From the NCBI GenBank assembly GCA_029256085.1, contig JAQSYP010000012.1, positions 1-52,039 of the forward strand: 52,039 nucleotides of DNA, given 5' to 3'. The notes under the pieces are model-generated. The model had not been told where the DNA came from and searched no databases. It was given only the letters and a program-made list of their open reading frames with translations. A program made the translations under genes and the position numbers. The stretch's first letter is position 1. Each line of letters starts with the position of its first letter. Shown here piece after piece: positions 31,154 through 33,360 of the stretch. Source of the DNA: Caryophanales bacterium (lineage in GTDB: Bacteria; Bacillota; Bacilli; CAJFEE01).

Positions 31154-31717
31154 TTATTTACGATTAAAATTATTCATTACATCTTTAAAATTTTTATCGA
31201 TAGCTTCTATACACGCTTTAGCACAAAAATCGATCGTATCTTTTAGATCTGGTTCTTCTTCCTTACTGAAGTTTGTTAATACGTAATCCACAACTGTTCC
31301 ATATTTAGGCCTACCTATTCCAAATCTAAATCGTTTAAATTCCTGGGTACCTAAATGTTGTATTAACGATTTCATTCCGTTATGACCACCTGCACTACCT
31401 TTTTCTCTAATTCTTAATTGCCCAAGGTTAATGTCTAAGTCATCATATACAACAAAAATATCATTAATATCAATTTTAAAATAGTTAATAAAAGGACCAA
31501 CACATTCTCCTGATAAGTTCATATATGTAAGTGGTTTTAATAAAAATACCTTTTCACCGTTTAAAAAACCTTGTCCAAATATACCATTAAACTTAGTTTC
31601 AGTAATCTTTATGTCTAATTTATCAGCCAGTTCATCTATAACTAAAAAGCCAACGTTATGTTTTGTTTTCTCATACTTAGAGCCTGGATTACCAAGTCCA
31701 ACAAATAATTTAGTCAC
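31154..31717 (-). CDS. pth: Peptidyl-tRNA hydrolase
   Basis: Releases tRNA from prematurely dropped peptidyl-tRNA (spoVC in B. subtilis). The 187-residue protein contains FVGLGNPGSKYEKTKHNVGF (residues 5-24, with the catalytic histidine in HNVGF), PLTYMNLSG and the DDLDINLGQLRIREKGSAGGHNG region (given here in part). It starts with GTG after AAGGGGTG. Normally ctc lies between prs and pth; here the space is filled by repeats. Confidence 0.96.
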   Translation of the reverse strand: MTKLFVGLGNPGSKYEKTKHNVGFLVIDELADKLDIKITETKFNGIFGQGFLNGEKVFLLKPLTYMNLSGECVGPFINYFKIDINDIFVVYDDLDINLGQLRIREKGSAGGHNGMKSLIQHLGTQEFKRFRFGIGRPKYGTVVDYVLTNFSKEEEPDLKDTIDFCAKACIEAIDKNFKDVMNNFNRK

Positions 31718-31752
31718 TTAATCACCCCTTACCAGATGTAGTATTTATCAAA

Positions 31753-31787
31753 GTTTAACTTTAAATCTAAACGTTTAACTTTAAATC
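31753..31787. repeat. Tandem 15-bp direct repeat upstream of pth
   Basis: GTTTAACTTTAAATC occurs twice (31753-31767 and 31773-31787) at a 20-base period. It lies between the pth start and the IS200/IS605-like right end. It may overlap the pth promoter, but no convincing -35/-10 pair was found. Confidence 0.75.
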
Positions 31788-31791
31788 ATGA

Positions 31792-31925
31792 CCACCGGTC
31801 AAACCGGTGGATTGCTCAGCCCTATAAGGTCTTGGTACTAGCTGCATCTAAAAATACTTTGAAGATCTGCCAACTGCGTATTATCACAGGTGCCCCTAAA
31901 GGAGCTTTTATTTTTTGCCTTTTTG
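31792..31925 (-). mobile_element. Putative IS200/IS605-type right end with omega-RNA-like region, no tnpB
   Basis: On the minus strand the segment reads from GCTCC-TTTA-GGGGC, then CACCTGTGATAATACGC, CAGATCTTCAAAG and CCTTATAGGGCTGAGC. It ends in a perfect palindromic hairpin CCACCGGT-TTG-ACCGGTGG (31792-31810). A palindromic hairpin at the element end, preceded by a conserved structured stretch, is how IS200/IS605 right ends with omega RNA look. No tnpA or tnpB frame exists nearby. Family assignment is from resemblance and recall, not a search. Confidence 0.5.
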
Positions 31926-32140
31926 TACAATACCAACCCGTAAACGGGCAAATGAATTCTTTTATAATATATCCCGAAAAAAAGCATTACATTTCTTATT
32001 TCTTTCTTGGAAGTGGTTTATAACTTATTTTTTAAATATGTTTAAACATTGATATTTAAATGAGAAAACTTATGCAACTTTTGAAAACTACTCGACAACT
32101 GTTCTGTTTACCTTAAAAATAATTTATTAAGTTTTGTATT
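31926..32140. other. Intergenic region between pth and prs with no gene seen
   Basis: AT-rich sequence with a small hairpin GCCCGTTTACGGGT (minus strand, near 31937-31950). Frames are short and lack ribosome binding sites. B. subtilis has ctc (a ribosomal protein L25 family gene) here; no trace of it was recognised. Confidence 0.5.
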
Positions 32141-32301
32141 TTTGTTGTCTAGAGCGTAGGCGCTGGAAATGCATGCATTTCCCCTAGGGGAAAAGCACTC
32201 CAGGTGAGACACCGCAAGCGAGCAAAGCGAGTGCGGAGGCTCACGGGAAAACGCATGCGTTTTCCTCAGGAAAGCGAGCGCCGAAAGCGGAAATCAACAA
32301 A
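32141..32301. repeat. Long-hairpin intergenic repeat, family A, copy 4, with three nested perfect palindromes
   Basis: Outer arms pair TTTGTTG with CAACAAA and GGCGCT with AGCGCC; the core pairs GTGAG / CTCAC and CCGCA / TGCGG. The left arm contains palindromes GGAAATGCATGCATTTCC (32165-32182) and TTTCCCCTAGGGGAAA (32178-32193). The right arm contains GGAAAACGCATGCGTTTTCC (32246-32265). The palindromes sit at matching places in the two arms of the larger hairpin. Non-coding. Confidence 0.85.
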
Positions 32302-32310
32302 GTAAAACTA

Positions 32311-32328
32311 ATAGTTAAGTTTAACTAT
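32311..32328. repeat. Perfect inverted repeat ATAGTTAA / TTAACTAT
   Basis: An eight-base perfect inverted repeat with a 2-nt centre lies between the family A copy and the left-end-like fragment. The loop is too short for a normal RNA hairpin, so it may be a DNA palindrome or a remnant. Confidence 0.5.
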
Positions 32329-32342
32329 AAGTTTTTTAGAAT

Positions 32343-32366
32343 CCCCGGTCTAGCTGGTGGTTTCAC
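32343..32366 (-). mobile_element. Putative degenerate IS200/IS605-type left end
   Basis: Minus strand: GAAACCACCAGCTAGACCGGGG. The first half resembles a palindromic transposon end (CCACCAG...CTGGTGG in an intact form), but the second half has decayed. It lies about 550 bases from the intact right-end hairpin at 31792-31810, consistent with an eroded element that has lost its genes. Confidence 0.4.
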
Positions 32367-32377
32367 CTTACAAAAAA

Positions 32378-32397
32378 GCGTAGTCAGTTGACTACGC
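32378..32397 (-). terminator. Terminator of prs
   Basis: Minus strand: GCGTAGT, loop CAACTG, ACTACGC, then TTTTTTG. The pairing can extend to nine bases. Confidence 0.9.
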
Positions 32398-32406
32398 CCT
32401 ATTATT

Positions 32407-33360
32407 TTAATCAAATAAAGTGCTGACAGATTGGTCTTCGTAAACACGAATAATTGCTTCACCGATTAAAGATGCAATTGATAATTCAATTAGCTTATCG
32501 ATTTTCTTTTCTTCAGCGATGCTAATTGTATTGGTAACAACTAATTCTTTAATACTTGAGTTTTGTATTCTCTCCATTGCTGGACCAGACAATACTGCGT
32601 GTGTGCAACATGCATAAACTTCTTTAGCTCCATGTTCAACTAATGCATTAGCCGCAAGCGTAATTGTACCCGCAGTATCAATAATATCATCAATAAGGAT
32701 ACAAGTTTTACCGTCAATATTACCAATGATGTTCATAACCTCAGCAACATTTGGCTTCGGCCTACGCTTATCGATAATAGCGATTGGAGCTTTAAGTCTA
32801 TCTGCCATTTTTCTAGCTCTAGTTACTCCACCATGATCTGGAGATACAATAACTAGCTCGTCTAAGTTTTTGTTCGAGAAATAATCAGATAAAATTGGAA
32901 CCCCCATTAAATGGTCGATAGGTATATCGAAAAACCCTTGAATTTGTGGAGCGTGTAAGTCTAATGCAATGATTCTAGTAGCTCCAGCTGTTTCTAATAA
33001 GTTTGCTAATAACTTTGCAGTAATAGGTTCACGTGAACGTGCTTTACGGTCTTGTCTTGCATATCCATAGTAAGGTATAACTATGTTAATTGTTTTAGCA
33101 GACGCCCTTTTTAAAGCATCTATCATTATTAAAAGCTCCATAATATGTTCATTAACAGGGAAAGAAGTTGATTGAATAACAAATACCTCACAACCGCGGA
33201 TACTTTCTTCTATGTTAATTTGAATTTCACCATCACTAAAGCGTGCAACTGAGCTCTTACCTAGTTCTAAGCCCATTTCTTTAGCAATCTCTTCCGCTAA
33301 TGGTTTGTTTGAGTTCAGTGAGAACAACTTCAAGTTTGAATTTAGATACTTATTAGACAT
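32407..33360 (-). CDS. prs: Ribose-phosphate pyrophosphokinase
   Basis: Makes PRPP for nucleotide, histidine and tryptophan synthesis. The 317-residue protein has the conserved [41 protein letters not shown] (metal and ATP binding), [11 protein letters not shown] flexible segment and the PRPP loop [14 protein letters not shown]. It follows glmU by 12 bases, forming the usual glmU-prs pair, and is followed by a strong terminator because ctc is absent. Confidence 0.97.

Follow-up and report, generated by a model that had tools for sequence, protein, structure and literature searches.

Very probable decayed non-autonomous IS200-type element between prs and pth in a Caryophanales bacterium, and a likely preference of its tnpA-only relatives for intrinsic terminators

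The window analysed here in silico, a stretch of 52,039 nucleotides, makes up one complete contig of the draft genome (2.6 Mb, 17 contigs) of a Caryophanales bacterium. Between prs and pth, two genes of the same (minus) strand, lies a stretch that a sequence-only reading took for the orphan right end of an IS200/IS605 element, perhaps an omega RNA that had outlived its TnpB nuclease, perhaps a non-autonomous element served in trans. TnpB guide RNAs originate in the right end adjoining tnpB (PMC8612924). The question is whether this stretch is a guide RNA, part of a mobile element or something else. Elsewhere in the window, a 5S rRNA gene lies near the contig end (51859-51974, minus strand).

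The perfect TTG-looped hairpin noticed earlier is present, with the stretch GGGGCACCTGTGATAATACGC...TATAGGGCTGAGC upstream of it, and this stretch, which had looked conserved, is conserved and not a product of chance, as both a plasmid search and a covariance model indicate. A blastn search of plasmids with positions 31785-31960 matched four records, three of them 3' of a tnpA gene of the IS200/IS605 family, namely a deltaproteobacterial plasmid (70% identity over 99% of the 176 nt, adjoining tnpA), an ISDha13-family element of Xenorhabdus and a Ruminococcus albus sequence. The fourth, a Proteus plasmid, has no annotated tnpA, yet its flank is similar to the 3' end of tnpA. The covariance model of the right end (R1), built from 33 relatives with the window excluded, matched the window over its full length (31784-31900, minus strand, 87.7 bits, E 5e-23) and found related right ends elsewhere in the same genome, at C14:81600-81716 (29 bits) and C4:247109-247227 (27 bits). 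The assignment to the IS200/IS605 family is therefore borne out, and the subterminal hairpin of the window is related to those of IS200 elements that carry tnpA only.

A second search added relatives from Staphylococcus (ISSep3), Fusobacterium, Streptococcus, Ligilactobacillus, Limosilactobacillus, Vescimonas and Monoglobus, with tnpA alone upstream in most of them. A scan for a fixed motif in genome contigs (at least 120 loci) and in viral contigs gave at least about 130 right ends; tnpA was found in most of those with enough upstream sequence, the remainder including short elements devoid of tnpA as well as gaps. The exact right-end pattern had no match in viral contigs, and searches of phages and E. 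coli gave none either. Two of the relatives' TnpA proteins match PF01797 and two match the NCBIfam model transpos_IS200. Between the tnpA stop codon and the right-end hairpin, tnpA-only IS200 elements (L070:3630-3769 and relatives) hold some 100 nt of conserved, structured sequence, to which Rfam assigned no family at gathering or relaxed thresholds. In the consensus fold of 33 relatives this module has two hairpins besides the terminal one; the first and third hairpins show two-sided changes that preserve pairs, whereas half of the middle one was fixed by the search pattern, so that its covariation is not assessable. The R1 alignment shows the module of the window to be partly decayed, with the first hairpin largely lost and a mismatch in the second, and its fold is no better than that of shuffled sequences (z -1.3). 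Left ends of three relatives (L012:2315-2424, L014:1913-2025 and L126:3956-4075) match the Rfam family STnc490 (RF01405), named for a Salmonella antisense RNA, below its cut-off. Six clostridial relatives without tnpA (L032, L049, L057, L082, L124 and L133) carry a CCACCTCCCTTTGCACAAGGGAGGC-type repeat upstream of the right end, a build similar to that of the window element and derived from a different repeat. A group II intron domain (group-II-D1D4-3, L126:665-836) occurs on the same contig as one element lacking tnpA.

The right end does not stand alone, and the term orphan does not hold: a left end, a tnpA remnant and other genomic copies accompany it. The whole element is oriented with its left end at 32371 and its right end at 31785; these exact ends are set by analogy with the empty sites of relatives, as no empty site of the window copy was found. 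The remnant encodes KEFICPFTG..., where relatives have KEYIDPFTG..., and among the genomic copies this surviving tail is seen only in that of the window. The left end, with its subterminal hairpin, is weak when taken alone against a left-end model built from other species (R2) and strong through its homologues, since left ends of the same genome reach 68 bits with that model (E 9e-12; 68 bits at C4:~527-528k and 64 at C16:167k) and the window left end agrees with the family consensus at 78% of positions across 98 nt (E 7e-15). The GC-rich dispersed repeat inside the element ends like GTTGATT...AATCAAC, and most of its genomic matches lie outside the IS200 relics and have no IS200 ends. It is probably a mobile repeat in its own right.

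Table 1. Features of the element, its flanks and its genomic copies (positions in the window unless a contig handle is given).
Feature	Position	Strand	Basis or remark
pth, aminoacyl-tRNA hydrolase	31154..31717	-	downstream neighbour of element
Right flank, most of GATTTAAAGTTAAAC direct repeat	31750..31784	-	host DNA upstream of pth, not guide
Whole decayed IS200-ended non-autonomous element, 587 bp	31785..32371	-	R1, R2, junctions common to other copies
TGAT, presumed right-end cleavage site	31785..31788	-	aligned with TGAT/GATT at relatives' right ends; empty-site comparison
Right-end subterminal hairpin CCACCGGT-TTG-ACCGGTGG	31792..31810	-	perfect 8-bp stem, loop TTG
Non-coding module, tnpA stop to right-end hairpin	31811..31907	-	R1 alignment, consensus fold of 33 relatives
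tnpA 3'-end remnant, 58 bp, frame-shifted	31908..31965	-	base-by-base alignment with relatives; stop TAA 31910-31908
Internal AT-rich segment	32040..32130	-	common to other genomic copies, 78% identity, E 4e-12
GC-rich dispersed repeat TGTTGATT...CAACA	32143..32299	-	41 genomic matches; same junctions in several copies
Left end	32300..32371	-	R2 match 32293-32377, 23 bits, E 0.05 alone
Left-end subterminal hairpin, decayed, AACCACCAGCTAGACCGGGGATT	32340..32362	-	R2 match
Intrinsic terminator GCGTAGTCA-AC-TGACTACGC + T6, downstream of prs	32372..32397	-	presumed host target, outside element
prs, ribose-phosphate pyrophosphokinase	32407..33360	-	upstream neighbour of element
Relic copies	C13 (window), C14:81k, C5:19k, C16:167k, C4:247k, C14:74k, C4:438k
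Further relic copies	C4:~527-528k, C4:452k, C4:370k, C4:311k, C16:37k

The same left end occurs at about 12 places in the genome, and several of these also agree in the junctions that flank the GC-rich repeat on either side, which is what spread of the composite element as one unit would give. None of the copies is intact and only three retain a recognisable right end, so the case for such joint spread comes mainly from the left ends and the inner junctions. No relic copies were detected in the one family relative examined. The earlier remark that neither a transposase nor a tnpB frame is present holds for the whole genome: neither Y1 transposase (PF01797) nor TnpB (PF07282) was matched, with the proviso that a TnpA gene could lie in a gap of the 17-contig draft. 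With only a tnpA tail in the element and no PF01797 match in the genome, the element is a derivative of IS200 and not an autonomous one.

The idea of an orphan omega RNA holds that TnpB formerly used 31792-31925 as a guide-bearing RNA, which was either retained in cis or served in trans. The stretch is indeed an IS200/IS605 right end, guide RNAs derive from such ends (PMC8612924), and the module of the relatives, about 100 nt long and structured, has covarying pairs. This reading is nevertheless highly improbable, as the module follows tnpA and not tnpB in the relatives, and TnpB was found near none of about 140 right-end loci (L010-L150, many on short contigs, which partly limits this absence) nor in the host genome. 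With 11 TnpB queries and a sample of TnpA loci not selected for the right end, TnpB was detected at 23 of 27 loci without an R1 match and at none of three with one, so that module and TnpB do not co-occur (Fisher p 0.009). Conversely, R1 matched none of 30 TnpB loci, a few of them short or weak TnpB matches, all from genomes that carry this right end; no TnpB match was obtained in nine of 19 genomes with the module. In the window copy, moreover, the first hairpin is largely lost and the second contains a mismatch. The GTTTAACTTTAAATC repeat by the right end, proposed as the guide, consists of two copies 20 nt apart, and the 20-mer in the guide position has no second match within the window at up to three mismatches.

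A host function could also have preserved the stretch, as a co-opted regulatory RNA or a 5' leader of pth. In its favour, the right-end hairpin has remained perfect and pth, on the same strand, starts about 68 nt downstream of the module, but the module is decaying and folds no better than shuffled sequences, other copies adjoin unrelated genes, and a promoter scan stayed at chance level; such a role is very unlikely. A long intergenic region with a fortuitous palindrome and some unrelated repeats might be suspected in an AT-rich host where hairpins are numerous, but the R1 match, the tnpA tail and the junctions common to other copies refute it and leave its probability negligible.

The element is very probably a decayed, non-autonomous element with ends of the IS200 group (ISDha13/ISSep3-like, tnpA-only), resembling the PATEs, that was once mobilised in trans and is now stranded. 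It shares with the IS200 group the end hairpins, the 3' module, the C-terminal motif of tnpA, the position behind a terminator and the absence of tnpB, and differs from it in having no working transposase and an inserted GC-rich repeat. PATEs of Haloquadratum (PMC3119063) and Halanaerobium (PMC7290912) have palindromes of IS605 type at their ends, are too short to encode a transposase, occur in several copies and spread in trans, and those of Haloquadratum have also been invaded by small mobile repeats (PMC3119063). The window element resembles them in its near-terminal IS200/IS605-like palindromes and its lack of a transposase gene, whereas its ends are of the tnpA-only IS200 type and not of the IS605/IS1341 type, all its copies are decayed and its sites are linked to terminators. 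The omega RNA (reRNA) of ISDra2 (PMC8612924) also occupies the right end of an element from the IS200/IS605 family; in contrast, the window module follows tnpA, has no TnpB nearby and is unlike the ends of the 30 TnpB loci.

The sites of the copies follow a pattern. By visual inspection of folds, 11 of the 12 copies have their left end in contact, or almost so, with the T-run of an intrinsic terminator (p about 2e-10 versus 10.6%), and the hairpin differs at each copy, showing that the hairpins belong to the host. Among relatives, a terminator stood directly upstream in 27 of 32 by automatic call (p 4e-21 against 10.6%), or in 23 of 32 on a cautious count, since at least three of the hairpins, those of L019, L028 and L040, may by eye be parts of left ends that extend further, and another is weak. 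Terminators were present at 5% of random places, behind 11% of stop codons and at 10.6% of intergenic runs of at least five T, and at six of 25 TnpA loci without this right end by a cruder measure. Elements of the clade directly behind terminators were noted in the window (32372-32397) and at L012, L014, L015, L042, L063, L093, L111, L017/L281 and L013/L282.

Empty sites were found for two relatives. In L. salivarius a clear terminator was already present before insertion of the 765-bp element, and in an IncC plasmid a short terminator-like hairpin preceded the element of 727 bp; no empty site of S. epidermidis was among the matches listed. Both insertions occurred without target duplication beside a short motif, and the bases that the ends have in common (ATT; TGAT) are consistent with cleavage of the right end at a site such as TGAT. 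In classical IS200 the left end itself contains a terminator (PMC2515195), a possibility that the differing flanks and the empty sites exclude for this clade. Selection for harmless sites could contribute to the terminator bias, but the T-run control and the exact abutment argue for a choice of target. On balance, it seems rather likely that this widespread tnpA-only clade (ISDha13/ISSep3-like, from Firmicutes to Fusobacteria and Proteobacteria) targets intrinsic terminators and, as part of the same proposal, that the non-autonomous copies of the host genome obey the same rule. What is recognised is probably the hairpin with its T-run in single-stranded DNA. Group IIC introns likewise insert just behind terminator stem-loops (PMC7923331), a likeness confined to target preference, as these are retroelements with a ribozyme and a reverse transcriptase and their machinery is unrelated. 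A literature search of incomplete coverage found no earlier report of terminator targeting by this IS200 clade, which is possibly new.

The course of events was probably as follows. An IS200 element would have lost most of its tnpA, leaving the 58-bp tail, and the derivative would have gained the GC-rich repeat. A Y1 transposase supplied in trans, acting on the end hairpins, would then have copied it to about 12 places, nearly always directly behind an intrinsic terminator, that of prs in the case of the window; the empty prs-pth site would read as the prs terminator T-run joined to approximately TTAAAGTTAAACG. With the transposase now gone, the copies would be stranded. Both ends, the tnpA tail, the repeat, the copies, their sites and the absence of TnpA and TnpB are direct observations, from which we infer movement by TnpA, the order of events and present immobility. 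Of the sequence-only proposal of a non-autonomous element served in trans, the lack of autonomy stands, with IS200-type ends and about 12 copies, and the service in trans is a probable reconstruction.

These results remove one candidate orphan guide RNA and provide a general check, namely that a right end of the IS200/IS605 family should be read as an omega RNA only if tnpB occurs in its clade. If terminator targeting is true, a large clade of transposase-only IS200 elements has a structural target rule and not merely a tetranucleotide. Such an address behind genes, where insertion is harmless, would help to explain why elements of this kind survive while doing little damage.
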